64,000 nt of DNA, from the NCBI GenBank assembly GCA_037176725.1, contig JAZBRS010000023.1:30685001-30749000 (forward strand), in the 5' to 3' direction. Position 1 is the stretch's first letter. Every line of letters starts with the position of its first letter. The position numbers and the translations under genes are program-made. This stretch comes from Posidonia oceanica (taxonomy: Eukaryota; Streptophyta; Magnoliopsida; Alismatales; Posidoniaceae). The notes below the pieces were generated by a model. The model saw only the letters and a list, made by a program, of their open reading frames with translations, ran no database searches and was not told the origin of the DNA. Positions 9,346 through 61,632 of the stretch are shown in pieces.

Positions 9346-9364
9346 TGGTGACCCCGCTGGGGAC
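9346..9364 (+). promoter_or_regulatory. PBS of plus-strand LTR element
   Basis: TGGTGACCCCGCTGGGGAC lies four bases after the LTR terminal CA (9342). It matches the PBS words at 528-546 (minus) and 50060-50078 apart from a few substitutions. Confidence 0.65.
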
Positions 9365-14399: not shown

Positions 14400-14690
14400 T
14401 GTGGTTTTGCAGCAAGTGGAAGGAGGGAAAAGAGGAGAAGAAAAAGATGAAGAGGGTCGTAGGCTGGCTGGGAAAAAAAGGGAAAAAAGAAAGAAGGAGA
14501 AGAAGTGGGCCGGGCTGGTGAGGAGAAGAGGAAAAAAAGAAATAGAGAAGGAAAGGAGGAGAGAAGGAGAGAAGGCTGGTGGGCTGGGCCAAAAGGAAAA
14601 GAAAGGAGAAAAGAAAGAAAGAAAAAGAAGAGGAAGAAGAAGAAGAAGAAGAAAGAAAGAAAAGAAAGAAAATAAAGAAAAATGAAAAAA
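14400..14690. repeat. Purine-rich simple-repeat tract
   Basis: GGA/GAAG/AAAG-rich on the plus strand, ending in an AGAAGA run. It occupies the same place relative to the LTR start as the purine tract at 4800-5050 in the other minus-strand LTR, but is nearer the end here. Confidence 0.75.
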
Positions 14691-14934
14691 AGGATGGGTT
14701 GGGCTTGGGCTTAGGCTTGAAATGGGTGTGACTTAGGGTTTCTAGGGTTTAGGGGTTTAACCTAGGTTTAGTTCTAGGGTTCTACCCTAGAGTTTTTTCT
14801 AGGGTTTTGTGCATGGGTTTACTAAGCTTTGGTTTTTAGTTTTTTTTTGTTTTTTTTGTGTGGGGGTTTTCTAGATTATTTCCACCAGAGAGAGCCATTA
14901 ATAGGGGTCAAAAGTGGGGTGTCAACACCTATTC

Positions 14935-15151: not shown

Positions 15152-15288
15152 GTTGGACACTGGATATGCCCGCGTCTTATGTAAGACGTAGAAAATCCGG
15201 CGTCTAACACTGCCAGTCTCTTTGGGGCGTAAGACGCTGCCTGAGACTGCGTCTTATGTAAGACGCAGCTCAGGTAGGCATCCTACAC
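15152..15288. repeat. Two adjacent palindromic GTAAGACGC cassettes
   Basis: Cassette A (15152-15208): GTTGGACAC, then GCGTCTTATGTAAGACG, then GGCGTCTAAC. Cassette B (15229-15288): GTAAGACGCTGC, then an extended palindrome from CTGAGACTGCGTCTTA to TAAGACGCAGCTCAG, then CATCCTACAC. Same plan as the cassettes at 16113-16880. Confidence 0.75.
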
Positions 15289-16112
15289 ACCGGAACTGAC
15301 AGAGCTCGATTTTGGGACTCTAATCGACTCCCAAGTGCAAATACCTTAGTGCCCCTTGTTTAGAACACATTCCCGGCCATGTCCCAGGGACTCTTCGTTT
15401 CAACTTCCACAGTTACACCTCATAGAAGCCATACAAAAGCTTTGTGGGCTCCTTCATTGAGGAGGCCGGAAAATTGACTCTTGTGGAGACCTCTCTGAAT
15501 CCCACAGCCATAAGCCACCCACAAACACCCCACTCCGGCCACTGGGAACCATTTCCAGCCCCTCACGAGCCTAGACAAGCCCTTCAGCCGCCACCACTGC
15601 TGCTGTAACTTCCGGGAAGACTCCGCTGGCGAAGGGAAGCCACACCAAACTTTACAACAGGTAGGTGCTCTCCTCCCTATAGCTTAGAATCATATTTTCC
15701 TTGTTGAATATGTTTATTTCAATACATGAAATCTGAATTTGCATGAATTCTTTCCCTGTTTTGGCATTTTCATTTAACTCCGGTGATAGGTTCCGGCCAT
15801 GTGAGGCCACCGGCCATTGAGCTTGGCCGAGAACCCAGTCACCCCTGCGGGTGTCATGCCATCTCTCCGTCTTCCCCAAACCTTCACTGAGCTTCATGGC
15901 CGTGTACCATGGCTTCCCGACCTTACAATGGCCAGAGAACCCATTGGATTCCAGCGACAGGCAAGTGGAGGTGAGGAGGATAGTTTGGACGTCCATTTTT
16001 TATAGAAATTGCATGTTTATGTTCGTGGATGTCTATTCTTGCTTGGGGAATGATTTTTGTTTGGATTCGTTTTGATTTGAATGGATTTTTAATCTGAATG
16101 CTCTGTTAGTAC

Positions 16113-16880
16113 ATTGGACGCTGAGCCTAGTGCATCTTACATAAGACGCTACCATGGCTAGCGTCCAATGCCTCTGATACTCTTTTATTTTATTTTCCTT
16201 CATAAAATGTTCTGAAAACTCCCTAATAGCAGATTTGTGATGTATATTGGAATTTCGATTCATTCTTATCATGTTTTCTTCATTTAAAACATTTAAATAG
16301 AACAAGTTTTATTTCTTGAGTTTTAAATCTGAAAAAAGAATAACTTAGGTGTAAAACGCTGGAAATCACAGCGTCTTACGTAGCACGCTGGATGTCACAG
16401 CGTCTTACACCTCTGTCAGAATTTTCCTTTATTTTTCATTATCAAAATGATTTTATTGATATCTGAAGTTTAGCATGTGGTACCAGAGTGCCCTTTAATC
16501 TTATTTCATATCCTGTCTTGTTTCATAGAATTATTTGACATTAATAAAAGCTGCTTCCCTTGTTTTACTTGAGAATCTAGTTCTAGGTGTAAGACGCAGA
16601 ACCAATAGCGTCTTATGTAAGACGCAGAGGTCCTAGCGTCTTAAACTCCAGACAGTCCTTCATTTGTGATGATTTTTGAAATACTTTCATTAGATTTGTA
16701 AACTGGCTCTAGATTGCATACCATTATTTAAACCATTTTCAATGATGTTTTGTCTCTCATGAGCAATGGCCTCTGTTTATCCCTTGTTAGATTAGCCACT
16801 CTGTGAAGTTCCTGATTTTCTGTGTTGGACACTGGCTCCTACGCGTCTTACATAAGACACTGGGAATCCTAGCATCCAAC
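16113..16880. repeat. Four palindromic GTAAGACGC cassettes about 237 bp apart
   Basis: Cassettes are at 16113-16169, 16347-16412, 16586-16647 and 16824-16880. Outer arms form inverted repeats: ATTGGACGCT/AGCGTCCAAT (perfect), AGGTGTAAAACGCTG/CAGCGTCTTACACCT (one mismatch), GTAAGACGC/GCGTCTTAA and GTTGGACACT/AGCATCCAAC. Each encloses an inner palindrome such as GCGTCTTATGTAAGACGC. Arms co-vary between cassettes (GGAC with GTCC; AAGAC with GTCTT). Confidence 0.8.
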
Positions 16881-17418: not shown

Positions 17419-18255
17419 TGGTTACAGCCTCTCAAGTAAATTTGAATCCCTATAGCTTCAGAAACCTGATTATGGACTGTGACTAACTGCATGTCTTTCT
17501 TCTTTACAGCCCTCGACTAGTACCGCACCTCCTCCAGATTACTCGGAGGAAATTTCCCGACTCCAAGATAAGGTATAAACATTTTCTGCTTTTGAATAGA
17601 TCTAGCTTGATACTAACACTGTTTTCTAGCAGGTTGCTTATCTGGAGAACGAACTGAAGGAACAAGCCAGTGATTTTATCGCTGCTAGATACGTCGGGAG
17701 ACTAGAGGAGTTGGAAGGGACTGTCACTTCCCAGGCCACTCGGATCTAGGAGTTGGAGTAGCAGGTACAGGTGGCTGCTGGTGACTTGGGATCTGCCCGT
17801 CAGCTTGCTGAGCAGAGGGCTGCTGAGGTTGCCCGGCTGACTGTGCAGCAGCAGGCTCCACCGACAATTGACTCAACCAGCGAGGTTGCCGAGTTGCAAC
17901 GGAAGTTGGAGAAGGCCCATGCGGTATGACTATCTTTATTTCACCTGTTAGTTCTCCACTTTCATTTGTAGCTGACATGTCGGTTGTCTTTTCGTAGGCT
18001 CTGGGATCTAACGAAGAACTCATAGCACAACTCGAGGGCGAGGTGAGGCATTATAGGAGACATGCCTATGCGAACAGCGCCGCTTCAAGCCAATCAGTTC
18101 CTCCTAAGCCGATGATTCCACCGAGCCATCATTCGGGCAGCCACCGCTCTCGAGCCGTTTCTAGGGCTCCCTCTGGTGCTTTCGTCCGTCAGTCGCCTCA
18201 GTCTCCTGCTGCCCCTTCTTCAGCTCCAGAAGGCGAGGGAGAGAGTGCCCCCTAA
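17419..18255 (+). pseudogene. Antisense ORF of Tat element: coiled-coil protein with introns
   Basis: Plus-strand ORF lying 3' of, and antisense to, the minus-strand Tat pol. Plausible exons: ...17438, 17510-17572, 17633-17923 and 17998-18255, with GT...AG borders (GTAAAT...TTTACAG, GTATAA...TAGCAG, GTATGA...TCGTAG). The product is Glu/Gln/Leu-rich with coiled-coil character (SRLQDK, YLENELKEQ, AELQRKLEKAH, IAQLEGEV) and a Ser/Pro-rich tail (PPKPMIPPSHHSG) ending at TAA 18253-18255. Two TAG stops in the third exon (after QATRI and ELE) look like CAG decay. Its 5' exons are cut off by the LTR ending at 17418. Antisense ORFs after integrase are known in Tat elements; the function is unknown. 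Confidence 0.6.
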
Positions 18256-19110
18256 ATAGTCTTTTCTTTTCTTGTTTTTGTACTTCAGTCTTTTCTTTTC
18301 TTGTTTTTGTACTTCAGGGGTATGCCCCAGGGATGCTTGTAGAACAATTTCAACTTTTATGAAAAAAAAAATATGCACACTTAACAAATTTGTCAAATAT
18401 CTCTTTTGAATTACCTTCCTCGAAGTTAAGATGAATTAATATGACCAATACAGCTAAATAATGGTCTTTAATTCAAACTAACTTAGAACCAGCATATTTG
18501 CGTGAAATAACATATAAATGATGAAGCTATGAAGACAAATTTCACCTGCGAGCTTTAAAACTAATTTATGAGGTTGTTGGCGCCTTAACGAGTCATTAAT
18601 TCCTTGAAAGGCACAACAGGTGATTCACAATGGCCCGGAAGTCCAAAAAAAATGTGAAACCAGCACTCACATGTGTGTTTCAACTTGATTAAGCCTCTGA
18701 ATTCGACCAAAGCTGTTTTTGCAACTCAATCACTAATTTAGGGGGGCCTTAGCCAAGTTCAGCAATTTAAGTTGCTGATAAAACGTTGAACGTCTGAACT
18801 AGCACGTTCAATGTTGAACGCTGGGAAACAAGCATTCAACGCTGAAAACCTTGTTCTAACGTAGAACGTTGCTTATTCCCCGTTCTACATTAGACGCTGC
18901 AGAACCTACGTTCAACGAATCAAGATAAGGATCTTTTCTTTCCTTTCTTGTTCTTGGCTAATCTTGTGGAATGTTGCGAGATTTTCTCAATGCCCGTGTA
19001 GGGAGGCCTCCGACGTCCTTCCAGTGCCCATAAAAACATGGCCTCCCCTTTTATGTATCCTTATCCCTTGTATTTTTGCCTGTAATTTTGCATCTCTCTT
19101 TCTTGTTCTC
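18256..19110. other. Spacer between antisense ORFs with GTTGAACGC cassettes
   Basis: AT-rich spacer. A direct repeat of the TTCTTTTCTTGTTTTTGTACTTCAG type occurs at 18260-18320. Two fused palindromic cassettes lie at 18783-18918 (ACGTTCAATGTTGAACGCT and CGTAGAACG...CGTTCTAC words). Just before them, TTCAGCAATTTAAGTTGCTGATAAAACG (paraphrased; 18756-18785) recurs in altered form at 20628-20656 after the next ORF. Confidence 0.55.
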
Positions 19111-20457
19111 ATGGCACATACTTCAGTCCCCAACGTTTCCATGCACAATAGGAGAGGAATTGCAAAGCCTTTGGAGGGAATCGAGGGGCACATGATGTCT
19201 CATATCAAGATCGGGCAGGTATGCTTTGTTTTTTCCACTGGTCTTTTCTTCCTTTCTAAGTATTGATCTCCTTTGCTCTTGGTTGCAGGAAATCATCAAC
19301 TTCACGAAGACGCCCTGTTTTGACAATGATTTTCCTTATTACTCTCCCTGAGAGAAGGAATTTGTGCCTTGGGCTCTGGCAAGGAAGTCTGTCCTATCAC
19401 GTACAGGCTTTGAAGGGCTCGTAGATTCATTAAGCACTACCCTGGACTGGCCTCTGCTCCATGCTCTATGTGCGTTCTAGAATCCTCAAACTCACACTTT
19501 CTTCCTCGGGGGTTGTGAGATGACAATCCTGGTGGAGGATGTTCATGGCCTTCTCGGTGTTCCTCAAATTGGGGTCTTCCGACCAGATACTGACTTCCCG
19601 CTGCCGTACGGAGTAGCTGACATGCAAACATCCATTGCTCATGTCTTTACCACTTCACCCACTTACCCCGTGCTCAAGGGTCGTCGGCTCAATTTGGCAC
19701 ATTTGTATTATACCTCCGAATTCAGGATCCTGCTTCCGAGGACCAGCTGTGGGTCTGTCTAGACTTGCTGATTGGGGGCCTCATCGTATTCATTTCCAAA
19801 GATTTCACCTTGGACGTCTATCATACTGAGTTCTTGGTGGGGCTTACTGAGCATTTTTGGCATTCTCCTTCGGTGGCCATCCTTGCAGCCACGTACCTCA
19901 GTCTGACCAGTGTTGCAACTGGTGGGGACTTCGTGGGTTCTCCCTTTCTTCTTTCCAGGTGGTTGCATACCCACTTTCCAAAGATCAAGCCCGCAAAGAC
20001 CAACTTCATTGAGGAGAGGGTTTGTCTTTTGTCTTCTGCCCCTATCAGCATCTTTACACACTCCACGCCATATTGCCGCAAGCATCAGGCACGAGGGCTT
20101 CCAGTTGAACTTGAGTTGATTGGGCCTACCCACTTTGTGGTGTATAACTCGCATCGCTGTTACAAGATGGTGGGGCATAAAAAGGGTGTACTGCCTCGGC
20201 TAAGCTCTATTCCTCGTATTCGGACTCGGGAGCACGGCTCACCAACTGATGCAGCGATGGTTTACTATATTCAAGCCCTGTGGACAACCTTGGATCGCCA
20301 TGATGACTCGGACGGGACCCACTTTACTCCTTTGACTTGTTCTCTACTCTAGGAAGATGAGCACTGGAACTGGTATTCAAAGTTGCTGCCCAAGCCTAAG
20401 GAGTGGGTCGAGGAGACTGGCATGTTGCGTAAAAAGAAAAAGAGATTGATTGGATAG
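19111..20457 (+). pseudogene. Antisense ORF of Tat element: plant-mobile-domain-like protein
   Basis: The likely start ATG at 19111 gives MAHTSVPNVSMHNRRG. An intron of about 70 bp (GTATGC at 19219 to TTGCAG ending 19288) separates a short first exon from the main exon. The main exon reads FEGLVDSLSTTLDWPLLHAL, PQTHTFFLGGCEMTILVEDV and HGLLGVPQIGVF, the N-terminal pattern of plant mobile domain / aminotransferase-like proteins (PMD or DUF7745-type). The domain continues through LDLLIGGLIVFISKDF and ends KKKRLIG. Broken by TGA/TAG stops (about 19349, 19479, 20350) and one frameshift near 19720. It is the second antisense ORF after Tat integrase. Assignment to the PMD group is by remembered motif pattern only. 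Confidence 0.6.
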
Positions 20458-22285
20458 GCAATTTTTCCTTGTATTTTATTTTATCTCCTTCGTTCTTGTG
20501 ATAGGCACTTGGGTAATGAATGAATATTTTTCCAATTTTTATATGTGTGCCTTCGTTTATTTTGGATTGTGAAGGGTCAAGAAATACTCTCTGGTGATCT
20601 TTGCATTGGTTGAGGGCTTTGGGCAGGATTCAGTGATTTAAGTCACTGATAAAACGTAGAACGCTCGAGATGGGCCATTCAACATTGAACGCTAGATTTA
20701 AAGCGTTTAACACTGCCGACAATTTTCTTTATTGAACACTGAAGTTGGACCGTCCAACTTCGAACACTGGATGACACCCGTTCAACACCTGTGAATGATT
20801 CCTGCAACATCTTAAAAAAATTGTTGATCCATCTAGGGTTGCTATTGCTCCTAGTCTCACATGAATATAATGAAACCAAAATGACCTACATGGAACGAAA
20901 ACTTAGGTTTTGGATAACAAGTCTTGGCCTCAGCTTTGTTGTCTAAAGATGGTATGCCTGACGAGGGGTTGTCTCTTCTTGAGATCCCAGCATCGGCTCG
21001 TAGGCGAATACCAAGTGACCATCCTGAATAGAAGGGGTCAAGTACAACGTGAAGTCGTAAAATTTCCTAGATTTCTGCATCATAGGTCAACTTGTTATCG
21101 GTTTCATGAGGTGATGTTGGTTGGATAAATTTTACCCTATTTTCTATTTTTTTGATTTTTTTTTTTTTGGATTTTGGATTTTCTGATTTTTTTTGGATTT
21201 TTGGGTTTTCTTATTTTTTTGGATTTTTGAGTTTTCTTATTTTTTGGATTTTTGGGTTTTCTTTTTTTTTTGGATTTTTTGCTTTTCTTATTTTTTGGAT
21301 TTTTTTGGGTTTTCTTATTTTTGGATTTTTTGCTTTTCTTATTGTTTTGGATTTTTGGGTTTTCTTATTTTTTGGGTTTTTTTGGATTTTTGGGAGAGAA
21401 AGAATCTTTCATGGAGCTGGGAAACACAGGACCTCGTGGGTGGAAACCTTGATAATTGGGTCCCTTGTGCATTCCCAAGATAAGAGATGCTTCAGGCTTG
21501 CCTTGGTATCTAACTGCCCCTAGTCCTAGGTTCCTGCCCTTTGCCTCAAAGTGTGTCGTGCAAGGTGTAGGGAAGGAGGGTCAATGTCCTATCCTAAGAC
21601 TTCAGCTAAAAATTTGGAGCTTATACCCCTCCCAGTTCAAGGCCGAGTCCTACTGTGCTTGGCAATTCCCCTATTTTTTAATTTTTGGACAGTTTCTTTG
21701 CTACCTTCTTTTCCTTTCTATTTGACAGCTTCTTTGCTGCCTTCCTTTCCTCTCTCTTTCTTTTGTTGTGGATGGGTAGTTTCTTTGCTGCCTTCTTCTC
21801 TTCTCTTTTCCTTTTTCCTTTAATACTTTGGCAAGCGTCAGTGGTCTCACCCACTTTTGAGTGCTCGGTTAATCGGTATTTGTTAATAGAATGAAACACT
21901 CTCTTTTGGTACACTCCCCTTTTTTACGCTTCTAAGCTTGACTTTGGACAGAAATCATGCTGGGATGTCATGCCCGACTCAAGAAAAGTGTGTGGACTTG
22001 TTATTCATGAACTGGAAGGGGGCTTTTTATGATTTGCCTCCCTCTCAGTGTTGGACTGTTTCCCCTCCTTTTCCCATAAAGTGTTCGTGAAGTGAGGCTA
22101 AGACATGGTTCCTAGGCCTTGGAAAACAGTAGGTTCACAAACACGAGCAATCTAGTGGCTCAACGTGCATGTCAAGGGTAGTTCCTTTTAAGGTGCAGTG
22201 CATTCTAGGGATATTCAAGACTAGTGCCATCCCCTCTGGCAAAACAATAGGCATTATCTAGATATGCCTCAATCACCAAGTATGG
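20458..22285. other. Tat 3' non-coding region between antisense ORF and integrase
   Basis: Holds two GTTGAACGC-type cassettes (20653-20712 and 20731-20788), a TTTTTGGATTTTTGGG minisatellite (21150-21395) and otherwise ordinary AT-rich DNA (21400-22285) with CTTTGCTGCCTTC words repeated at 21700-21810. I could not identify a polypurine tract or the 3' LTR of the Tat element here. Confidence 0.5.
21150..21395. repeat. T-rich minisatellite
   Basis: About nine units of ~27 bp, TTTTTTGGATTTTTGGGTTT plus TCTTA. It yields Phe-rich frames (FLDFGFS) that look membrane-like but are periodic artefacts. Confidence 0.85.
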
Positions 22286-23330
22286 TCATTCCCAGTTTGA
22301 TCTTAGTTTCCCATGTTTGCGTGGAAGGATTTCTTTAAGCACCCATTCACCAACATTGAATTTACGTTCAATTGCTTTCTTTTTATAAGCTCTTGCAAGT
22401 CGTTCTTGATAGAGGCGTGCATGCTCAACTGTTTGCAACCGTTTCTCATCTAGTAAATCTAACTGTAAACTTAACAACTGCCTCTTATCCTCGGCACTTA
22501 TCTCATCGTCAAGTTGGATTTTGGATGAGGGGACCATGATTTTAAATGGGACTACTGTTTCCATATCATAAGTGAGCGCGAACGGGGTTTGGCCCGTAGG
22601 TGTCCTTATGAAGGTTCGGTAAGCCCATAAAGTATCAATTAGTTTATCTGTCCAATCAGGCCCCTTGGCATCTCCTACCGTTTTCTTAAGAATTCGGATT
22701 AACATTTTATTAGTAGCTTCATCTTGTCCATTACCATGGGGGTAATATGGCGATGAATGATGCAACTCGATATTGAACTTCTTACAGAGCTTCTTGAAGT
22801 CCTGTGACACGAAGATTGCACCCTTATCCGCTACTAGCCTCTTCGGGATCCCAAACCTTGAGAGACTATTCTTCCGCATGAACTTGCATAGGCTTGGAGC
22901 TTTGATTTTAGTGAATGCTTCTGCTTCAGCCCATTTGGTGAAGTATTCAGTAGCAGTGAGTATGAACTTGTTCTGCTTGCCAGTGTCAAAGGGTCCTACG
23001 ACATCGAATGCCCACATGGAGAAGGGCCACGCTGTTTGAGTTGGATTTAGTTCTGACGCTGGCGCATGTATCCTGTCTGCATGGATCTGGCACTGCCTGC
23101 ACCTCCTCACTTTATCTGCACAATCTGCCTCCAGTGTGTGCCAATAATAGCCTCTACGTAGTATCATCTTGGCCATGAATTGAGAGCTGATGTGTCCTCC
23201 ACATATTCCTTCGTGCATCTCACTAAGGATGACTCTGACTTCCTCATAAGTGAAGCAACGAAGCTCTATTCTACTAAAAGAGCTCTTGAAAAGAACTCCG
23301 GCCCTCATGAAGTATCTTGTAGCCATCCTT
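22286..23330 (-). pseudogene. pol: Tat-type integrase domain
   Basis: C-terminal part of the Tat polyprotein, which inserts the cDNA. A zinc-binding HHCC module is visible (HEGICGGH then CRRCRQC). The catalytic core has D in AFDVVGPFD, D in LVADKGAIF (usually DNG), and E in GQDEATNK, so the DDE residues are kept although the DNG motif reads DKG. After it come TPFALTYDMETVVPF, ERKFNVGEWVLKEILPRKHG and the C-terminal domain, which runs on past 22286 into stops. The 346-aa frame is the longest intact piece of pol. Upstream it joins RNase H through a stop near 23384. Confidence 0.88.
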
Positions 23331-23961: not shown

Positions 23962-25281
23962 CTAGCTTGGAAGCTCAGCAGTTTGTATTTTTAGTACCTC
24001 CTCATTTGGGAAGTCTGTCTGTACTGGCTGATAGTCTTCTAATGGCAAACCCGCCAAATGATCCGCTATAGTTTGCCCCTTGACTACTTTCTGAGGTACA
24101 TATTGGAGGTCAAATTCGATGAGGAGGAGCTGCCATCTTGCTAGCCTTCCAGAGAGGGTTGGCTTCTCGAACATATACTTAATTGGATCCATTTTGGCGA
24201 TGTAGCAAACTTTGTGAACCAAGAAGTAGTGCCTCAATTTTTGGGAGGCCCATACCAAGGCTAAACAGTGCTTTTCTATAGTTATGTATTTCTCCTCGTA
24301 ATCTAAGAAGGTTCTGCTCAAGTAGTAGATAGCTTTTTCTTTCTTTCCATTTTCATCATGCTGGGCTAGCACTACTCCTATTAATGACGAGGTAACTACT
24401 ACATACAGCAACAAGGGCTTTTCTGGTACAGGTGTCGATAAGACGGGAGGACTCATGAGATATGCTTTGAGCTCATCAAAAGCTTTCTGCCAGTTTTTAT
24501 CCCAAGCAAACTCTTTTCCTCCTTTCAATAGCTCGTAGAAGGGTTTACATCGGTCGGCGTGTTGTGAGATGAATCTCTTGATGAACTGTAAGTGCCCGAT
24601 GAGTCCTCTGAGCTCCTCGATATTTCGTGGGGGAGGCATTTGTGCAATCGCCTTAGTCTTCTGCAGGTCTACTTCAATTCCCTTTTTACTGATGATGAAG
24701 CCCAATAGTTTCCCAGCAGTTACTCTAAATACGCACTTCTTTGGGTTCATTTTTAGCTGATATTGCCTTGCTCTGCACAGCATCTTTCTCAGTGCTTCGA
24801 AGTGCCCTTCCCTTGTTTTTTATTTGACTAAGATGTCGTCAACATATACTTCCATGCAGTCGTGCATCGTGTCATGGAAGATGGCCATCATCGCCCTTTG
24901 GTATGTTGCACCTGCGTTCTTGAGACCAAACGGCATGACCACATAGCAGTATGTCCCCCATGGTGTAATGAATGACGTCTTTTCTTGGTCTTCTTCTGCT
25001 AAGTTTATCTGATTGTAGCCGAAGAAGCCATCCATGAATGACAGCATTTCAAATCCCGCTGTATTGTCTACCAACAAGTCGATGTGTGGCAGAAGGAAGT
25101 CATCTTTGGGACAAGCAGCGTTGAGGTTGCGGTAGTCAATGCAAACTCTATCTCTTCTGTCTTTCTTGGCCACTAGCACTATGTTGGAGACCCAGCTGGG
25201 GTATACTACCACCCTGATGAATTTTGCCTTGTGGAGCTTGTCGATCTCTTCCTTTACTTTAAGCGCCAGCTCCGGCCTCAA
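23962..25281 (-). pseudogene. pol: Reverse transcriptase and first RNase H of Tat pol
   Basis: The RT reads VKEEIDKLHKAKFIR, SWVSNIVLVAKKD, VCIDYRNLNAACPKDDF, FMDGFFGYNQI, TYCYVVMPFGLKNAGATYQR and the active site YVDDILVK (near 24830-24850), then the thumb region GFIISKKGIEVD, RNIEELRGLIGHLQFIKRFIS. The first RNase H is degenerate (LYVVVTSSLIGVVLAQ lacks the usual catalytic D), then EEKYITIEKHCLALVWA and LSGRLARWQLLLIEFD. Stops: TGA after KQKLR at the left edge of the upstream frame and TAA after DDILVK. Chain order and motifs are those of Ty3/gypsy Tat pol. Confidence 0.9.
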
Positions 25282-38090: not shown

Positions 38091-39790
38091 CTAGATTGAG
38101 TCAGGATCCAGGTCTTCTCCGATGGTAGGGTGTTAGATGCTCAGGGTAGGTTCCTCTCCTGATACACTGGCCGTCTCTGACCTTTCTCTATCTGGCCTTG
38201 TCTGGTTGGCTTCAGAAATTTGGTTCATCATTGTAGCAGCTTGAAGGGGGATATCTGCCTCAGAAGTGTAGAACGCTGAGGATCAGACGTTCAATGTTGA
38301 ACGCAGATACAGAGGCGTTCAATGGCCTCAACAGCACTATTTCAGTTTTATATTCCCCCTCTTTTCCCTTTGTCTTTTTTCTTGCTCTTTTTTTCTTTTC
38401 TTTTCTTTTCTTTTCTTTTCTCTCTTTCTTTCTTTCTTTTTCTTTTTTTTTCTTTCTCTTTTTATTTTTCTTTTTTTTTCTTTTTGCTTTTTTTTTTGCT
38501 ATAAATGGAGGTAAATTACAAGGAGTACACTTGGAAAGAAATAAAATTTACAAGAAAATTTTGGCAACCTAATACAAGTTTTTAGGAAATGAAACAAAAA
38601 TGGGAAACTAGAATGTCAGCCTCTGTTTAAATGTCCTGTAACATGCAGTCATTCACCATAAAACAGAAAAATATAAATCAAGCAAAGTGTTGAACGCGTG
38701 ACCTGGGACGTTCAACGTTGAACGCAGGTTTCTGCACGTTCAACACCCTTGTGTCAGACAGCTGCACAATAACACTTTCAGATAGCGTTTAGCAGTCGGA
38801 TTTTTGGGTTTACGCTTAATTATTAGTGTTTTAACCTTTATGCCTCTCAGGGTACCTAAGCTTGGGTATGGCTTTTCTCTGGGGTTTATCTGGGGATCCT
38901 CACAATAGGACAAAATGCTTCTTCTTGGTACTACCCCCTACCTCAACTCCTGAGGATGTTAAGGGGAGCCTAAGCACACTTACATTCCTACCCCGTAAAG
39001 GTAGAGCTAGCGTACTTAGGATTGATTGGGGTCTCTCTCGTATCAAACACAAACAATCTACAACAAACCACCGAAAAGGGGGGGAAGCAATTCTTAACTT
39101 AGGGTTCTAACTTATTTTTACAAGAGTCAAGGGAAGAAAATGTGACTCTTGGAAAAACAAGTGACAATACAAGCACTTTACTTAGATTCTTTGCAACAAG
39201 GGTGCTTAGAATCTAAGGAGTTACTTGTATAGCCTAATAAAAGATACAAACAATTTAGTTCCCAAAAAGGACCATACAAGTCATACAAAAGAAAAGTTCA
39301 ATTTTTTTTTTTTTGAAAAGCACCTGAGAATCAAAGTTCCAGTCCCTACGGCAAAGCTGATTACCTCACACTTTGACTATCAGGTCAGTTATAAACAAAG
39401 AAAACAAGAAATTTGCAAAATAGAAAGAGTTTCTGTTCAGCGTTGTTGAACGCTGAGACTGGGGTGTTCAATGTTGAATGCTTAGAATCAGGCATTTAAC
39501 GCACTGACAGAGAATTTTTCAGAAAAAACAGTGATTTTTAATTAACCACCCACACTCCTGAGAATCACAGAGAAAAGGGAGGTGATTTCAGGTATTTTGA
39601 ACATAAAAAAAAAAAACAAAACAAAACAAGAGTTGCGGTACCTAAAAATGCTATGAGGAATTTTACCGCACTCGTAAAACCCACGAAAATAAAAGAAAAA
39701 AAGATGCAATGAAGAAAAGAAAGAAGAAGAAAAGGTAGGGAAACTCACCTTAGCACGGGGACACTTTTAGCGGTCCCATAGTGATTGCCA
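38091..39790 (-). mobile_element. Tat 5' leader region with polypyrimidine tract and cassettes
   Basis: Between gag and the probable 5' LTR. It has a TTTTC-rich tract at 38350-38505 (purine-rich on the element's sense strand) and GTTGAACGC-type cassettes at 38266-38322, 38687-38746 and 39443-39503. TGGCAATCACTATGGGACC on the minus strand (39772-39790) is a possible PBS, but the adjoining LTR end is not a clean CA, so this is tentative. Short ORFs have no domains. Confidence 0.45.
38350..38505. repeat. Polypyrimidine (TTTTC) tract
   Basis: About 155 bp of almost pure C/T on the plus strand; Phe/Ser-rich frames across it are artefacts. Confidence 0.9.
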
Positions 39791-41437
39791 GACTATAGAT
39801 ATGAGGTTTTGGAGGAGAAAAACCGTCTCTCGGTTCTTTTGCTTTCTCAGCGTCCCCTTTGCTTGTTCGTCGATCCCAATACTCCACGTGTGTTGAAACC
39901 GGTGTGATCGCCACTCTCGGTTTGCTTTCGCCGGCCCTAAGACGCCTTGGGGAGATGTGTTGATGTGGGTTCAGCTACCTTGAGACAACGCCAGCGTTGC
40001 TCAAGGGTGCTCGTGCAAAGTGAGCTTCTTCTTCTTCTTCTCTTTTCCTTGCAAACTAGTATTAAAAAAACGGATCAATACAGTGTAGTAAACGGTTCAT
40101 GGTAAATGAAAAGTGACATAAAATAAACACAGAAAATACTCACCTGAGGGGTTTTTTCCTCCGGTTGCAACTAAGTATGAATATGCCTAGCTACAACATG
40201 CAATAGAAATGAAAACACAATGTGCAAAAAACTACTAAAAGAAAATCCCATTTTGATATTATAGAAATGCAATATGTCGTCGTGGCGTGGTTGGAGATGG
40301 GAGAAGACTGAAGCTCTCTGGCACTCTCTTTTTACTCACTTGTTTTTCACAACCTCTCTTTCTCCTAAACTATAGAAATTCCTCTCCATTTTCCTCCCTT
40401 CCAATTCCTTGGCTCAAAATCTTATTTCTCCAAAATTTTTTGGTCCCCCCTTCAAGGTTGGAGTGCCCCTACTTTAAAGAAGCAAGGGGGACACAACAAT
40501 GGTGGATTGGTTTGAATTAGGCATGATTAGGCAGCTGTATCAAAAAGTTTCCAATTTAGAAGTGTTGAACGCTTGAAACCACAGCGTTCAACGTTGAACA
40601 CTGGAATCCAAGCGTTCAACGACCACCCGAGGCATAGTTGCCAGAATAAAGGAATATTCCCCCACTAATTACTGATTAGCAATTATTATGCCCAGATTAT
40701 GTGATTGATTGGTCGACGGAACTCTAAAGGAGGCAAGAATTCGAACTCTGGATTTCGTCCAAAAAAGGAAAGTTGGTCTAGCAAAATGTCGTCGTAGGAC
40801 GCTTGAAAATAAGCATTCTACGTTGAACCCCGGTATACAAGCGTTCAACGACCACCCGAGATGCAGCTATCAAATTAAGGGGACAATCAGCAATTAAAGG
40901 TGGGTGAATATTGGTTGAATCATGATTGGCCATCCACTTGATCACCAGGCCTCCAAAAAGAGGAATAATTTGGATTTCGATTTCGGTTAAATAAGAAAAG
41001 TTGTGGCCAGCATTGGGCTTTATAAAACGCCAGGAGCTCAGTGTTCTATATTGAACACTGTGAAACCAGCGTTCAACAAACCCAGGCGGTCAACCTGCCA
41101 AATTTGGCCAAGAAATTATTGGGACCGAAATTACTGAAATTAAGAGATAATGATGGACCTAAATCGGGCTGATCTGGCAAAAGCAGTTCTGGGTTGTAGA
41201 ACGGTTCTAATATTGCATTCAACATAGAACGCTTGTTAACCAGCGTTCAATGTAGAACGCTGGATTTCAAGCATCTAATGTTGGACGCCCAGATATGTGC
41301 GTTCAATACCCTGGATTTGCAATTAGCTCAGAGGAGAGAATTCGGATTGAAAAGAAGTCTTCTAGAGGTGAACCGGGAGTGCTATGGTGTAATGAGATTT
41401 TCAGCAATAGGGGGAGTGCCAAAACGGGATATCTACA
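39791..41437 (-). mobile_element. Probable 5' LTR of the Tat element
   Basis: On the minus strand it starts TGTAGATATCCCGTTTTGGC (complement of 41418-41437), a typical TG...LTR start, beside unrelated chromovirus LTR sequence. The body has four diverged ~230-bp units, each with one GTTGAACGC cassette (40564, 40794, 41020, 41193). The left limit is inferred from a possible PBS at 39772-39790. No partner LTR is seen in the window, so the call rests on position and start sequence. Confidence 0.5.
40564..41307. repeat. GTTGAACGC palindromic cassettes, ~230-bp spacing
   Basis: 40564-40620 is the cleanest: GTTGAACGCTT and AAGCGTTCAAC form a perfect 11-bp inverted repeat around the perfect palindrome GTTCAACGTTGAAC. 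Others: 40794-40849, 41020-41077 (inner CAGTGTTCTATATTGAACAC) and the fused pair 41193-41307. CCACCCGAG and GCC/CAAATT words recur after each. Confidence 0.8.
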
Positions 41438-46328: not shown

Positions 46329-49300
46329 TGTAGACACCCCATTTTTTATCCGTTATGTTGGTGGTTTTCTTTCCAAACCCTAAACCCCATTTCAGCCCAT
46401 GAACACCCATTTTCCCACCAAACCCTAAGCCCAATTAAACCCATTTAAGGCCCACAACCAAGCCTACCATTAAACCCTAGAAATCCCCATTTTAAACCAA
46501 AACCCATTTTCCAATTTCCCTCCAACACTACCAAGCCCAATCAAACCCTTGTCCCAACTACACCAAGCCTTGGCCTCTTAAACCCACAAACCCAATACTC
46601 CTTTTCTTTCTCAACCCACAACTCCATTCAAGCCCACTACAAGGCCCACAACCCCACTCACTGCATTTTCCCTCCACACCAATTCAACCCCTCTGCATCC
46701 TTTTTTTCCCTTCTGCACCCACACTTTAGCACCCAGATTCACACCACAGCACCAACCTTCAGCACCCAACCCAATCTCTTCTAAACCCACAACACAGCAA
46801 CCCATTTGTGCACCAACCTTCAACACCCAACACAGCCTCATTGATCCACCACAGCAACCACACCATTCAGCAACTTCCTTCACCATTCTCTCACCCACGA
46901 CCTCTGCAAGTCACCTCCTACACCCAACCAACTGCAGATTCTCCACCTTCTCTGCCACACCACAACCAACAGCATGCCTCCACCTCAGCCTCGATCTTGG
47001 TCGGCCATTCACAGCCCCAGATCCCATCCAGCGGCTGCCATCCTTCCACCACCCAATAAAACAGTGCTTCCTCCACCCACAGGGCTCTGGCTGGCTTCCC
47101 CATTGCTCCACCTTGCTCCCTGGTCTGCGTCCCTCACCACAGCACACCTAGCAGCCCCTCTTGCCGGCCAAACCTCTCTTCGCTGGCAGAGTGCACCCAT
47201 CGCAACCTCACCATAGTCCCAACCACTGCATTCCCCTTCCAGCACCAATTCACCACTCCACGGACTCACCACAACCTCCAACAACCTTCTCCGGCCTCCA
47301 CATTGCCCGCACGACCCAAACACAACCGGTGAACCCAACTGCATCCACCTCCGGCCACCTCTGCAACTTACTTCACCAAAGCCAGCAACAGCACCTCTAC
47401 GCTTCATCCGGACGTCCACCAATGATCCACGAGAGCGTCCCAGCACCACCGAGCCTCCTCTGCCGCATCCAACAGCACCGCCGCTTGGAGCAACAGAGAC
47501 CGCAGCCACTCGACATCGACAGCCTCTTCCAGCCACGGTTTTAGGTAAGAGACCTCTCCCTAAATATCATAGGAATCCTCTCTTGCTTCCTAGGCCTTTA
47601 AATGCATGTTTTATATCTGTTTACTTCAGTTTTACCCTCACCTGTCATCTTCTTCTTCTTCGATGACGGCTCGTCGGCAGAAACGACCATCTGCCGTGAC
47701 AGACAGCCTCGACCCTCCAGATCACTCCCGAGCGACCTCCGGACTTCATGCATCTCGTCCAAGCCCCGCCTAAGCCTCCTCCTTGGCCTCCAGCACCGCC
47801 ATTGGCCAGGGCGACGCTTGTCATGACCCACCGACGTCGAAGGAGTGCTTCGAGCAGCGTCACGCCTGCGTGAGACCTCCCTCACCTCCAGGAGCTCCCC
47901 CTCCAACTTCCAGGCCTTTCTCTTTGGCCGTGGACCCCCTAGATCGTTGCAGCCACCTAGCTCCAGCGTCCTGCCCTTCCGGTGGTGGCTCCACCGGCCG
48001 TGCGAGGCCATTTGGCCTCTGAGCATGGCTGAGAGCCACCATCTGGCCTCCCCTCCTCTCCTCTTTCTCTCCGCGAGCTCGCAGCACCTCCTCGGTGTCA
48101 GACGAAGCCTCTGTCAGCATTCTTCTCCAGCTCTGGCGATGCATGACTTTTCTCTGGTGAGTCAACTGCGTCGTCACTACGCCCGCAACCGCCTTCTCTC
48201 CGCCTGCATAGCTCCGCCGGATCACCCTCAGGCCTCTCCCGCCGTCGCCGAGTGCAGAGTGCCCCTCTAGTAAGCTAGCAACCTCCTTCGCCGGTGTGAA
48301 GCTTCTTCTTCGACGCAGCAAGTAAGCCCCTGCATTCCACTGTTCATTTATTTAAGTTAAAACATTCATTTCATTTAAAAAGCATTGCAACTATATTGCA
48401 TTATCTTTTAATCTAGCATTTTACTTTTATTGTAGTTAAGTCCAGCATGCATTGCATTCCATTTAAGTTGCATTTTAAACTATATTGCATTTATGCTTGC
48501 ATTGCATTTAAATCCTGCATTGTAGTTTTATTGCATGTAGGTCCTACTGTTAACTGCGCTGCATTTATGTCGCATTACAGTTAGGTCCTGCATGTTTATT
48601 TTATTGCATATAGGTCCAGCAGCTGCATGTATTCCATCAGAACCATATTGCATCTTTCCCACATTGCATTTAGGTCCGGCATGTTTATTTTATTGCATAT
48701 AAGTCCAACTGTTAACTGCATTGCATTTAGGTCCAGCAGCTTTGTTTTATTACATTTAGGTCCTGAATCTAAACATTTGCATGCACTGCATTTATACTGA
48801 CTTTGCTCTTAGGTCCAGTATGTTAGTTTTATTGCATCTAAGTCTAGAATTTGCATACATTGCATTATCCCAGCATTGCAGTTAGGTCCAGTAGTTTAGC
48901 CTTATTGCATTTAAGTCCAGAATTCAAACTGTTGCATGCATTACACCTTCTGCTGATATTGCATTTAAGCCCTTGCATTTTGCCATATTACACCATTGAC
49001 CTTCATTGCATTTAGGACTCCACCTCATTGCATTGCATGCATACATGGGCATATTGCATTTGAGCCCCTACATTTCTCCCATATTGCATCATTGGTTTTA
49101 TTGCACTTAGAACCTTATTGCATTGCATGCATACATGGGCATATTGCATTTAGACCCTGCACTTGGCCTCTTTTGCATCAGTGGGCTTTGAGCTATCTGG
49201 CTTGATCTCTGAATAACTTTTGATCAGACCGTTGGATCTTTACGATCTAAACATCTGAATCTTCCTTGTTGAATGAGCTTCCATTCAAACTTGGGTTTAC

Positions 49301-50059
49301 TCAGATCAGGTATCAGATCGTCGAGTCAATGCCGATTTGAGCCACTGCATATCATTCATTACTTCATAACTTGCATTGCATACATTGTTTTCTCGATCTG
49401 TCTTCTCGAGCATATAGATTAGGCTTTACCGATCGATTTCCCCTTGCTTGCCTCGTCCTTGCATTGTATGGTTTCCCGTCGGTGTCTTGTTTTCCCTTTG
49501 CATGCTGCATCCTTGCATTGCGTGGTTTTCCTCCGACGTTTTGTTTCTCGCCTGCATTGCATCTAGGGCGATGATGTTTACTGTTAGACTTCTTTGGAAC
49601 CGTGGTACGCCCGGTTTAGATACCAACAGCGTTGCTAAGCACATAGATCGCATGTTTTGTTTTCCCTCATGCATCATGGCATTTTTAGCATACATTTAGG
49701 CATGTTAAAGCATTCATGACATAGCATAGCATTCATTCCACACATGTGAGCGAGATTAGCCTAGAAAGACCGCTCCTCGGGCGTATGGGGGTGCCTAACA
49801 CCTTCTCCATGCGTAACAGGAGTCCTTACCCTTTCTCTTGGCCCGCAACGACCTTTGTGTCTGCATCCATTGACATGAGTCATACATTTTGCATCATATC
49901 GCATGCATAGCATTGTTTTTCTCGATTTTCCGACAATAGACTAGGTGGCGACTCCGTTTCTTGCTTTATTCTTTGTTTTCTTCGCCAATTATCCTTGACT
50001 CTCTCTTTTCACCGGATGTCGGTCAACCCAGCATCGCGGCGGGGACGGTCATAAGGACA
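46329..50059 (+). mobile_element. 5' LTR of gag-only retroelement (3.73 kb)
   Basis: It begins TGTAGACACCCC inside the chromovirus RNase H codons and ends GGACA at 50059 before a PBS. It is nearly identical to 58083-61632; the main difference is about 195 bp (47947-48141) absent from the second copy. Layout: AACCCTAAACCCC start, Pro-rich ORF-permissive GC part (46800-48250), TTGCATTTAGGTCC array (48350-49170), conserved block (49745-49860) and U5 with GGTGGCGACTCC (49944-49955). High LTR identity implies recent insertion. Open frames such as 47009-47536 (minus) recur in both LTRs simply because the LTRs are copies. Confidence 0.92.
48350..49170 (+). repeat. TTGCATTTAGGTCC degenerate array
   Basis: More than 20 words such as ATTGCATTTAGGTCC, TTGCATATAGGTCCAGCA and GTAGTTAAGTCCAGCATG at irregular 25-60-bp spacing; ends with a duplicated CATTGCATGCATACATGGGC unit (49031 and 49121 areas). 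Confidence 0.75.
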
Positions 50060-50078
50060 ACGGAGACTCCGCTGGGGA
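50060..50078 (+). promoter_or_regulatory. PBS of gag-only element
   Basis: ACGGAGACTCCGCTGGGGA directly follows the LTR terminal CA. It aligns with TGGCGACTCCGCTAGGGA at 528-546; the first bases have drifted. An identical word is at 61633-61651. Confidence 0.6.
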
Positions 50079-51239
50079 TCAGTAGACTCCGGCTTTCGTT
50101 TCCACTTTTCTCGCTTGCATGGTTTATTGCTTATGCTTGCATTGTCTTTGCTTGCCCTTTCATGCTTAATTCATGCTTTATATGCTTGCCTTGTTTATGC
50201 TTGCCTTGTTTATGCTTGCCTTGTCTTTACTTATCATGCTTAATTGATGCTCTATTGCCTGCTTATGCTATGCTTACATGCCTTTTGAGTGGTGAATGCT
50301 TATTCGCACACATATGCCATGCCACCACTTGCACATATTCTGCAACATGCCTTTTGATGTGATGGATGTCTTCCCTTTTTCACCATCATGTGCACAACAC
50401 AATCACATGCCATGCTCATGCCTTATGAAGTGATGTGTGATATATCATTGCCATATTTGGATGTTTCTTTCCCTCTTTTGCATTAATTCTAAGGTTAAGT
50501 AGAGATGTGATTGCCTCTTCCCTTGGTTTAATCTAAACAAATGCAAGTAAAAACAATGCTTAGGCTTACTAGAGCTTTACACTCAGCTCTTTCCTCTTTT
50601 GGTTAATAAAACGTGCAAGTAAAAAACTTAAAGCATACTCGCATGATTGATCATATAGGGCATGCATTCTTCTCATCCCTGAGTCTGCCTTCTAGTCTGA
50701 GAAGGATAGGTTCGGTCTCTTGTTCCGCTGCTTTGGTGTGGGACGAGCTAGTCGGTCTATCCCCCCTGTCTGGGGTCGTGTCGGTGTTAGTAGAGGGTAC
50801 AACCCATGCTTTGGCTGGGACGAGGCCACCAATGCACCACTCCATTACTGCCTGAGCTTTAGCTAGAATTTAGACGGGGAACTTACTTTTTCTGACTTGA
50901 GTCAATAAACCCATACCCTGTGAGCTGGTCCGAGTATACAGCCTACTCAGGACATACATGGTGAGAGAGTGCATATTAGGACATTCATCTGCATGTATGC
51001 CATTCATTTCACTATAAAAACTGGCATTGCGTCTTTGTCTAGGTGCTAACCTGATTTGCTTTGCCTGTCCGCAGGTAGGTGCGAGGTCCTCAGCCGAAGC
51101 TCAAGCATCTCTGTCTCGAGCAGCTCCTCGTGGTCCCCCTCTCTTTCCGGGCTATTCATCGTCTTCGACGATAGCTCATCCTAGGACTCGTGCATCTTCT
51201 TTTCGCCGCAGCCCTGCCCTTACCCACTCGCGGTCAGCT
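50079..51239 (+). mobile_element. Leader of gag-only element
   Basis: TTGCTTGCC/ATGCTT-rich, with GCTTGCCTTGTTTAT repeated at 50180-50220. It contains the conserved block 50655-50950 shared with 9960-10260, and a pyrimidine-rich stretch plus CAG (51060-51075) that could be a splice acceptor. It is nearly identical to 61652-62370, then more diverged to 62788. No supported gene. Confidence 0.6.
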
Positions 51240-55104: not shown

Positions 55105-57200
55105 TATCGCCTCGCTATCCCGCTTCGCATTTTTGTCACCGATATGCGTCCCGGTTGACAGACTTGCCTTCCCGCTCCGCGTTTTTGTCACCGATATGCG
55201 TCTCGGTTGACAAACTCGCATTCCCGCTCCGCATTTTTGTCACCGATATGCGTCTCGGTTGACAAACTTGCCTTCCTACTCCACATTTTTGTCACCGATA
55301 TGCATCTCGGTTGACAAACTAGCCTTCTCGCTCTGCGTTTTAGTCACCGATATGCGTCTCGATTGACAAACTCGCCTTCCCACTCCGCATTTTTGTCACC
55401 GATATGCAACTCAGTTGACAAACTCGCCTCCCCGCTCTGCGTTTTTGTCACCGATATGTGTCCCGGTTGATAGACTCGCCTTCCCGCTCCGCGTTTTTGT
55501 CACCGATATGCGTCTCGATTGACAAAATCGCCTTCCCGCTCCACGTTTTGTCACCGACATGCGTCCCGATTGACAGACTTGCCTTCCCGCTCCATGTTTT
55601 TGTCACTGATATGCGTCCCAGTTGACAGACCCACCTTCCCGCTCCACGTTTTTGTCACCGATATGCGTCTCGGTTGACAAACTCGCCTCCCCACTCCACG
55701 TTTTTGTCACCGATATGCGTCCCGGTTGACAGACTCGCCTTCCCGCTCAGCATTTTGTCACCGACATGCGTCTCGGTTGACAAACTCGCCTTCCCGCTCA
55801 GCATTTTGTCACCGACATGCGTCTCAATTGACAAACTCGCCTTCCCACTCCACGTCTTTGTCACCGACATGCGTCTCAATTGACAAACTTGCCTTCCCGC
55901 TCTGCGTTTTTGTCACCGATATGCGTCTTGGTTGACAAACTAGCCTTCCCACTCTGCGTTTTTCTCACCGATATGCATCTCGGTTGACCAACTCGCCTTC
56001 CCGCTTCTCGTTTTTGTCACCGATATGCGTCTCGATTGACAAACTCACCTCCCCGCTTCGCATTTTTGTCACCGATATGCGTCTCAGTTGACAAACTTGC
56101 CTTCCCGCTCCACATTTTTGTCACCGACATGCGTCCCGGTTGACAGACTTGCCTTCCCGCTCCACGTTTTTGTCACGGATATGCGTCCCGGTTGACAGAC
56201 TCACCTTCCTACTCCGCGTTTTTGTCATCGATATGTGTCTCGGTTGACAAACTCACCTTCCCGCTCCATGTTTTTGTCACTGATATGTGTCTCGGTTGAC
56301 AAACTCGCCTTCCCACTCTGCATTTTTGTCACCGATATGCATCTCGGTTGACAAACTCACCTCCCCGCTTGGCATTTTGGTCAACGATATGCGTCTCGAT
56401 TGACAAACTCGCCTTCCCGCTCTGCGTCTTTGTCACCGACATGCGTCTCGGTTGACAAACTCGCCTTCCCGCTCCGCGTTTTTGTCACCGACATGCGTCT
56501 CGGTTGATAGACTCGCCTTCCCGCTCCACGTTTTTGTCACCGATATGCGTCTCGATTGACAAACTTGCCTCCCTGCTCCACGTTTTTGTCACCGATATGT
56601 GTCCCGATTGACAAACTCGCCTTCCCGCTCCGCGTTTTTGTCACCGATATGCGTCTCGGTTGACAGACTCGCCTTCCCACTCCGCGTTTTTGTCACCGAT
56701 ATGCGTCTCGATTGACAAACTCGCGTTCCTGCTCTGCATTTTGTCACCGACATGCGTCTCGGTTGACAAACTCGCCTTCCCGCTCCGCGTTTTGTCACCG
56801 ATATGCATCTCGGTTGACAGACTCGCCTTTCCACTCCACGTTTTTGTCACCGATATGCGTCTCAATTGACAGACTCACCTTCCCGCTCTGCGTTTTTGTC
56901 ACCGATATGCGTCTCGGTTGACAGACTCGCCTTCCCGCTCTGCGTTTTTGTCACTGATATGCTTCTCAGTTGACAAACTCACCTTCCCGCTCCGCGTCTT
57001 TGTCACCGATATGCGTCTCGGTTGACAAACTCGCCCTCCCGCTTCATGTTTTTGTCACCGACATGCGTCCCGATTGACAGACTCGCCTTCCCACTCTGCG
57101 TTTTTGTCACCGATATGCGTCTCGATTGACAAACTTGCCTTTCCACTCCGCGTTTTGTCACCGATATGTGTCTCGATTGACAAACTCGCCTTTCTGCCCT
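55105..57200. repeat. 52-bp minisatellite, about 40 copies
   Basis: The unit carries CCTTCCCGCTCCGCGTTTTT, GTCACCGATATGCGTCTCGG and TTGACAAACTCG in order. Some copies are 51 bp (one T fewer). Each holds an imperfect inverted repeat: TGTCACCGA ... TCGGTTGACA. Copies differ at a few positions (GCGT/ACGT, TCTC/TCCC, ACAAACT/ACAGACT). Six-frame ORFs here (VSTETHIGDKN-type) are periodic artefacts. Confidence 0.95.
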
Positions 57201-57204
57201 CCAG

Positions 57205-57640
57205 TTTGCTTTCCTCCTCCGGGCTGGCAGCCCTAACTACTCGTTTGACATCCGTCAAAATGTTTGCCTCGGGCTGACAGTCCTAACTGCTCGGTTGACA
57301 CTCGTCATACTGTCTAACCCCTTTGCTCCTTTGTGCTGGCAGCCCTAACTGCTCAGATGACACTCGTCAAATTGTCTAGCGTTCTTTTCCGATGCCATGA
57401 GCATTTCAGCCGCCCCTGGTATCATCTGTCTGATACCAGGGGCATCTTTTTCACTGCCTTTGGTATCATGCCCTCATTTCCCCTGGGCTGGCAGCCCTAA
57501 CTACCCGGATGACATCAGTTAAAGTGTCTGGCGTCGCGGGCGGTAAGCACGATAGTCTTGTCTGGAGTCCTCCTCTCGGCTGGCAACCCTAACTATTCTG
57601 ACGGCAAGCACGTTAGTCTTGTCTGGTGTCCCTCTTTGCG
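57205..57640. repeat. Diverged ~50-90-bp repeat (GGCTGGCAGCCCTAACT)
   Basis: Copies near 57222, 57274, 57339, 57486 and 57579 share GGCTGGCAGCCCTAACT (GGCT-GGC-AGCC is a small palindrome) and, in most, a nearby GACA(T/C)(C/T)CGTCA word. Immediately follows the 52-bp array. Confidence 0.7.
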
Positions 57641-61000: not shown

Positions 61001-61632
61001 ACCGGTCGATTTCCCCTTGCTTGCCTCGTCCTTGCATTGTATGGTTTCCCGTCGGTGTCTTGTTTTCCCTTTGCATGCTGCATCCTTGCATTGCGTGGTT
61101 TTCCTCCGACGTTTTGTTTCTCGCCTGCATTGCATCTAGGGCGATGATGTTTACTGTTAGACTTCTTTGGAACCGTGGTACGCCCGGTTTAGATACCAAC
61201 AGCGTTGCTAAGCACATAGATCGCATGTTTTGTTTTCCCTCATGCATCATGGCATTTTTAGCATACATTTAGGCATGTTAAAGCATTCATGACATAGCAT
61301 AGCATTCATTCCACACATGTGAGCGAGATTAGCCTAGAAAGACCGCTCCTCGGGCGTATGGGGGTGCCTAACACCTTCTCCATGCGTAACAAGAGTCCTT
61401 ACCCTTTCTCTTGGCCCGCAACGACCTTTGTGTCTGCATCCATTGACATGAGTCATACATTTTGCATCATATCGCATGCATAGCATTGTTTTTCTCGGTT
61501 TTCCGACAATAGACTAGGTGGCGACTCCGTTTCTTGCTTTATTCTTTGTTTTCTTCGCCAATTATCCTTGACTCTCTCTTTTCACCGGATGTCGGTCAAC
61601 CCAGCATCGCGGCGGGGACGGTCATAAGGACA
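58083..61632 (+). mobile_element. Second LTR of gag-only element (3.55 kb)
   Basis: It starts TATTGACACCCC (first LTR TGTAGACACCCC) and ends GGACA at 61632. About 99 percent alike the 5' LTR by eye, with a ~195-bp deletion after 59715 and a few small indels. It is followed by a PBS and internal leader rather than by a TSD and foreign DNA, so it is an LTR shared with a further tandem copy. Confidence 0.92.
59925..60745 (+). repeat. TTGCATTTAGGTCC degenerate array, second LTR
   Basis: Copy of 48350-49170 with only scattered substitutions (for example GTTAACTACG for GTTAACTGCG). Confidence 0.75.

Follow-up and report, generated by a model that had tools for sequence, protein, structure and literature searches.

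The long terminal repeats (LTRs) of Sireviruses, which are Ty1/copia retrotransposons, carry palindromic, CpG-bearing repeated motifs (RM boxes) that also occur upstream of ENV and whose binder is given as unknown (PMC2829016). In VANDAL transposons, the VANC protein binds arrays of the motifs YAGTATTAY and AGTTGTCC in the non-coding regions of its own element, as shown by chromatin immunoprecipitation and gel shift; these motifs differ between related families and vary in copy number (PMC5735166, PMC10398659). Another accessory gene, which encodes a plant mobile domain (PMD), has been reported for 57% of Ogre elements (PMC6317226). According to a further study, two clades of PMD are encoded by Gypsy elements alone, the function of the domain is open, and anti-silencing by MULE-captured PMDs has been a matter of speculation (PMC5418596). 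The host PMD proteins MAIN and MAIL1 take part in silencing and in the expression of genes with a promoter motif; the 'DOWN' motif linked to them reads CATGCAGTTT in the MORC1 promoter, direct binding not having been shown (PMC7156037, PMC9899485). Here we describe a repeated site in 64,000 nucleotides of Posidonia oceanica DNA (contig JAZBRS010000023.1, positions 30,685,001 to 30,749,000; this whole stretch is hereafter the window), where it occupies the LTR and leader of a large Ty3/gypsy element and flanks the antisense PMD gene of that element.

The site is a cassette in which one unit, F-N10(11)-R, of 28 or 29 bp, is repeated in tandem; F stands for the half-site GTWRRACGC (W is A/T, and R within the triplet a purine), and R for the reverse complement of F. 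Two abutting units give the plan of half-site, palindrome and half-site that a sequence-only reading had noticed; there are usually two units and up to four. Like Sirevirus RM boxes, this is a high-copy palindromic LTR motif with more copies near an accessory gene, with CpG, and with a sequence that varies between elements. Unlike them, it is found in Ty3/gypsy elements (by Pfam domain order) and not in Ty1/copia elements, is built of spaced pairs of 9-bp half-sites in tandem 28/29-bp units instead of short compact palindromes, has the half-site GTWRRACGC in place of a CGG-CCG core, and lies also in the leader and 3' of antisense genes. Precedents exist, then, in Sireviruses and VANC; the grammar here has two strict levels, fixed-spaced half-sites within tandem units, and is common to two abundant lineages, and it is stricter than that described for Sireviruses and VANC targets in the parts of those papers available to us. 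The motif is not described in the titles and abstract openings of the literature among the matches listed, a scope that leaves out preprints and most subscription papers.

The geometry is rigid. In 319 kb, comprising the window and genome loci L005 to L030, there are 138 chains of half-sites: 93 FRFR, 16 FRFRFR, 4 FRFRFRFR and 25 odd-ended (10 RFR, 5 RFRFRFR, 4 FRFRFRF, 4 RFRFR, 1 FRFRF and 1 FRF). Of their spacers, 260 measure 10 and 38 measure 11; the chain test admits only these two lengths, and free-distance counts weigh more. Such counts, made in 338.5 kb, gave F..R gaps of 10 (231) or 11 (28) and an R..F gap of 0 (143). Gaps of 38, 39 and 28 are sums of these basic gaps, and few other gaps appear among the values listed, with one to three occurrences each. 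Among the values listed for the reversed-sequence control (338 half-sites), gaps of 10, 11 and 0 are absent, and chained half-sites number 621 in the forward sequence vs 0 in the reversed. Genome-wide (2.96 Gb searched, 80 contigs), GTTGAACGC-N(2-31)-GCGTTCAACG occurs 753 and 777 times on the two strands vs 0 in the reversed controls, and the 84 distinct places listed have a spacer of 10 in 73, 11 in 7, and 9, 13, 15 and 23 in the other four. The palindromic core GTTCAACGTTGAAC occurs 942 times vs 7 in the control, and GCGTCTTACGTAAGACGC 1303 times vs 0.

Is the palindrome or the F-N-R pair the basic unit? The palindrome was considered and rejected: both outer half-sites are present at 131 of 143 palindromes, one is present at 12, and at none are both missing. 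Since no palindrome lacks both, while F-N-R units do stand alone (12 cases), the basic unit is F-N-R. The middle triplets of the half-sites agree best within this unit (52 and 47 of 93 cassettes, against 28.7 and 28.3 when shuffled), also after removal of the cassettes with the GTTCAACGTTGAAC core, when 76 of the 93 remain and the agreement is 35 and 34 against 17.3 and 17.9. At the LTR cassette matching window position 40564, L013 and L023 are missing one whole F-N-R unit and keep a single intact one. Beyond the unit, an inter-cassette gap of 19 bases was seen 13 times among the free distances, and the paired cassettes 5' of the PMD gene (window 18785-18916; L010, L011, L023) lie about 75 bp apart with a gap of 19 or 20 bases, as if the spacing between neighbouring cassettes were fixed too.

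In the window the plan is present at all seven places originally claimed between 38266 and 41307, and six of these pass the half-site chain test. Three are FRFR cassettes of the leader with 10/10 spacers (38268..38323, 38689..38744 and 39445..39500); in the LTR there are FRFR cassettes at 40564..40620 (spacers 11/10) and 40794..40849 (10/10) and a four-unit cassette, FRFRFRFR with eight half-sites and all spacers 10, at 41196..41307. The seventh (41022..41077) is degenerate and fails the chain test; one or more places with its free-core score of 20/27 turned up in 26 of 500 shuffles, so that only its context makes it credible. The outer repeats are exact, as had been said, over 11 bp at 40564/40610 and 10 bp at 38687/38737. 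The claim of an exact GTTCAACGTTGAAC core stands at two places (38710 and 40586) and falls at the others, which have variants. Nine more chains lie beyond 38250-41437: two 5' of the PMD gene (18785..18840 and 18861..18916), one 3' of it (20656..20711), and six within 15152..16880 (15152, 15229, 16113, 16351, 16589, 16824; spacers 10 or 11, mostly AAG/TGG triplets) that belong to a second lineage and are presumably what had been set apart as a family with core GTAAGACGC.

Shuffled or unrelated LTRs with a similar density of such structures, which would have spoken against the plan, were not seen: the 6 chains of 38250-41437 compare with 0 in 500 of 500 dinucleotide shuffles. Other stretches of the window (1-14900, 11345-12275, 42000-64000, and the long repeats 46333-49985 and 58087-61558) hold 0 chains. 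A free-core scan requiring a near-perfect central palindrome gave 8 matches of at least 21/27 in the 64 kb, each of them in one or other cassette family, and no match in any of 4 shuffles. When the palindrome condition was relaxed, eight extra matches of at least 21 appeared in simple or tandem repeats (1534-2191, 3297, 15051), so that the free-core score alone is unspecific there.

The window had been read as holding two cores that share only the ACGC ending, the architecture being kept while the core changes. In fact a GT start and an RACGC end are common to both, and there is no separate recognition sequence. The middle triplets of the 621 half-sites are TGA 308 (over-represented, as L005-L024 were picked by exact GTTCAACGTTGAAC), AGA 90, TGG 44, TAG 42, TAA 40, AAG 38, AAA 20, AGG 8 and others 31, and 590 of them fit a single W-R-R cloud. 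They are also mixed inside single cassettes: that at L018:9430 holds GTTGAACGC, GTAAGACGC, GTTGGACGC and GTTAGACGC, and that at L022:4220 combines TAG, TGG, AGA, TGA and TTA. Because of this mixing, two separate core families were rejected in favour of one degenerate half-site, which is common to two abundant retrotransposon lineages. The outer half-sites of the 76 cassettes with 10/0/10 spacing have T at position 2 in 150 of 152 and A at position 6 in 151 of 152, both of which the scan itself favours. The main exception to the cloud is TAT (9), chiefly from L019 and L029/L030; half-sites with this triplet (GTTATACGC type) concentrate at L019:650 and L029/L030 and may be a further variant.

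The element that carries the leader and LTR cassettes is a single large minus-strand Ty3/gypsy element that reaches from 41437 to about 17430. Its order from 41437 is 5' LTR, leader, gag-like sequence, insertion, gag-protease, reverse transcriptase (RT)/RNase H, integrase and then two antisense plus-strand frames. The 5' LTR (39790..41437, minus strand) starts with TGTAGATATCCCG at 41436, and its segments and start are common to other copies; its inner end was placed from the points where homology blocks stop and is approximate. The limits of the leader (38250..39790, minus strand) are likewise approximate; it runs from the LTR to the gag-like coding sequence, a reading judged by eye, and has homology blocks in L007, L009, L012, L013 and L024. 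Foreign DNA is inserted in the element at 37364-35010, a site over which L007, L009, L012 and L013 continue uninterrupted, and L010 has the order integrase, PMD, coiled coil, LTR start, LTR. Because these copies join the pieces from gag to the antisense frames, we treat them as one element. The domains of a Ty3/gypsy element were recognized with Pfam, their order being inferred from coordinates: RT-associated RNase H (RT_RNaseH, RT_RNaseH_2) at 23962..24783 and integrase (rve, H2C2) at 22286..23326, both on the minus strand. The PMD gene, antisense to gag-pol, lies at 19289..20352 on the plus strand; its frame is broken into two pieces in different frames, with the change near 19711, and this copy scores below the Pfam cut-off. 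Coiled-coil-like antisense frames without a Pfam match lie on the plus strand as well, at 17762..18255. In being a large Ty3/gypsy element with a PMD extra frame after integrase, it is like the Ogre/Tat-type retrotransposons (PMC6317226, PMC9289625, PMC5418596), a likeness by domains; it also has cassettes, of which the parts of those reports available to us make no mention.

The antisense extra frame with the PMD domain sits between pol and the 3' LTR, to judge from the order in L010. The accessory genes match PMD (PF10536, DUF7745) and no other Pfam family, so that the accessory protein is a PMD protein and not a VANC relative; an open 312-residue stretch in L020 scores 36.4 bits against a Pfam cut-off of 34.9. 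A second PMD gene, about 30% identical, is found elsewhere in the 3' region of L005, L008, L011, L014, L015, L023 and L029. Cassettes sit in the LTR, in the leader, on both sides of the antisense PMD genes and in every examined gap of the 3' region. None of 139 overlaps coding homology (338.5 kb; 14 element-protein queries; homology covering 17.6% of bases), a count to which no probability is attached because the copies are related. In this respect they are like VANC targets, which also are short motif arrays limited to the non-coding parts of an element that encodes an accessory nuclear protein, and which likewise differ between related elements and vary in copy number. The differences are that VANDALs are DNA transposons with a demonstrated reader and the host here is a retrotransposon with a presumed one, and that the VANC motifs are single sites, for which no dyad grammar is described in the available text of those papers.

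The survey covered sixteen PMD stretches, the one in L014 extending over both PMD genes. On the 5' side, 13 have a cassette no more than 650 bp away; on the 3' side, 12 have one no more than 450 bp away; and 10 have both. The 5' misses are L005 (2160 bp), the first L020 stretch and L030 (the last two 4 and 649 bp from the locus edge); the 3' misses are L029, the two stretches of L020 and the first of L023, which lies 61 bp from the edge. In the window, the only stretch chosen blind to the motif, the distances from PMD to cassette are 373 and 436 bp.

The second lineage is represented by the cassettes at 15152-16880 and by those of L018/L025 and L015/L026. In these, spacers of 11 and the triplets AAG and TGG are more frequent, and next to them lies a conserved stretch around TGGCGACTCC that we take to be R-U5 and the primer-binding site. 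L031, which adjoins a second-lineage cassette, has no homology to any query protein. L032, from the 15.8 kb that separate two GCGTCTTACGTAAGACGC places, has homology to gag-like, RT, RNase H and integrase sequences; in the 9.5 kb of it that were read no cassette was found.

What do the cassettes do? Fixed spacing around unconstrained spacers, conservation of the half-sites and the loss of units as wholes are the features to be expected of dimer-site arrays, and we consider it very probable that each unit is such a site for a sequence-specific nuclear protein, whichever protein binds. An alignment of 13 LTR copies (14 were aligned, and the partial L009b was left out) gave a mean pairwise identity in non-CpG columns of 0.899 for half-sites, 0.756 for spacers and 0.785 for the rest; when the mask was shifted circularly, 3 of the 1364 shifts came up to the half-site value. 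With all 14 LTRs and all columns the figures are 0.856, 0.746 and 0.773. The mask takes in positions 1, 2 and 6-9 of the half-site; the middle triplet, outside it, is also conserved (0.90, 0.88, 0.93). To this extent the protein-DNA recognition system proposed in the sequence-only reading appears well founded, being favoured by the geometry, the free spacers, the conserved half-sites and the absence of an RNA-pairing bias (below). On this model a nuclear protein would bind as a dimer to each unit, and jointly to adjacent units; once bound, it would activate the promoters of the LTR and of the antisense genes, or shield them from silencing.

The reading we settle on, at somewhat less than an even chance, is that the reader of the arrays is encoded by the element, the bracketed PMD protein being the leading candidate. 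This protein, perhaps with the coiled-coil product, would close a self-recognition loop like that of VANC in VANDAL transposons. That the PMD protein is itself the binder we regard as rather doubtful, and a broader proposal as unlikely, if worth stating: the PMD proteins of these retrotransposons would be sequence-specific readers of their own F-N10-R units, so that LTR retrotransposons would have a counterpart of VANC for recognizing themselves and countering silencing; the triplet would change along with the PMD; and host MAIN/MAIL1 would be relatives of such readers. A likeness is offered by MAIN and MAIL1, PMD proteins that have been linked with a promoter motif and also with the silencing of transposons (PMC7156037, PMC9899485). 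Several observations weigh against PMD as the reader. The surveyed part of the PMD literature offers no support for PMD as a DNA binder, and the MAIN/MAIL1 motif CATGCAGTTT, as published, is unrelated to the F-N-R half-site. PMD loci other than the window were chosen for holding GTTCAACGTTGAAC, so the closeness of PMD and cassette is partly selected, and some PMD stretches away from a locus edge lack a near cassette (L005 on the 5' side, the second L020 stretch and L029 on the 3' side). An AlphaFold model of the PMD had a mean pLDDT of 37.9 and was discarded. Finally, no PMD was seen in L031 or in L032, of which the 9.5 kb read exclude the last 2.8 kb before the second GCGTCTTACGTAAGACGC place and 3' LTR cassette; because the second lineage has sites and no PMD was seen in it, PMD as reader is weakened without being excluded. 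Among solved structures no relative was found, the two matches having E values of 0.13 and 0.14, and protein searches returned seven ENA proteins in total. Three PMD relatives (P0003, P0004, P0007) have a basic KKRKR stretch at the C-terminal end that resembles a nuclear localisation signal.

For a change of the PMD along with the triplet, and for the rapid evolution suggested in the sequence-only reading, there is a single case, with a counter-example. The L029/L030 element has shifted triplets, with no TGA among 15 chained half-sites, and its PMD proteins have diverged rather far: PMD-A shares 67-68% identity with that of L020 (others 73-79%, short L023 pieces 60-69%) and its PMD-B 70.5% identical to that of L015 (others 71-87%), as against 83.5% for its integrase (others 80-85%). 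The PMD-B of L020 is at 70.6% as well, yet its cassette is of the TGA type.

The link to PMD genes is what would give the finding importance. With 10 of 16 PMD stretches flanked on both sides by so rigid and abundant a site, a ready probe for DNA reading by PMD is at hand, and if PMD proteins do read it, LTR retrotransposons would gain an anti-silencing self-recognition parallel to VANC.

A host transcription factor could instead bind the GTWRRACGC pairs as a dimer, both lineages exploiting it as an LTR enhancer and at accessory genes, with PMD an incidental neighbour. This is a possibility to be taken seriously, albeit short of an even chance. The sites are common to a lineage in which no PMD was seen, a degenerate middle triplet suits one shared reader, and repeated host-factor sites in LTRs are of a known type (PMC2829016). 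Arrays in the leader, 3' of PMD genes and in every examined gap of the 3' region are, however, more than an enhancer needs. If a host factor does bind, it would be a plant transcription factor exploited by two abundant retrotransposon lineages. We know of no plant factor that fits (heat-shock element, NAC, MYB, WRKY and ARF were considered; no motif-library comparison was made).

Explanations with no protein reader fare much worse than the dimer-site reading. A functionless 28-bp tandem repeat spread passively by slippage would account for the shifts of copy number by whole units and for the 2-4 units per cassette; it is very improbable, in that spacers diverge widely while half-sites persist, cassettes avoid coding homology altogether and similar places are reused.

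Still less probable are hairpins in the retrotransposon transcript, serving packaging, dimerisation or translation. Every unit has the form of a perfect or near-perfect hairpin with a loop of 10 nt, transcription covers the leader and the LTR, and triplet agreement is strongest within the unit; but many units, as in the second lineage, pair F and R of different triplets poorly. Selection for RNA stems should also make G-T pairs exceed A-C pairs among mismatches on the sense strand, and they do not (84 vs 95 in palindromes, 129 vs 140 in hairpins, in the 97 of 138 cassettes that could be oriented), which argues against it.

The idea that these CpG-rich clusters are small unmethylated islands or silencing targets with no dedicated reader is just as improbable, for although CpG starts per column are denser in half-sites (0.102 vs 0.033) and more often kept (178/246 vs 244/419), both figures being helped by the site finding itself, and although the clusters are like the CpG islands at Sirevirus motifs (PMC2829016), it leaves unexplained the strict spacing and the nearly invariant non-CpG T (position 2) and A (position 6).

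At 1241-2329 the window has a tandem repeat of about 30 and 60 bp, crossed by an open frame of 394 codons with no Pfam match. Segments 46333-51213 and 58087-62786, about 11.7 kb apart, are 97 to 98.6% identical, and their tested parts are without cassette chains. Between these two nearly identical segments, at 55111-57207, lies a tandem array with a 52-bp period.

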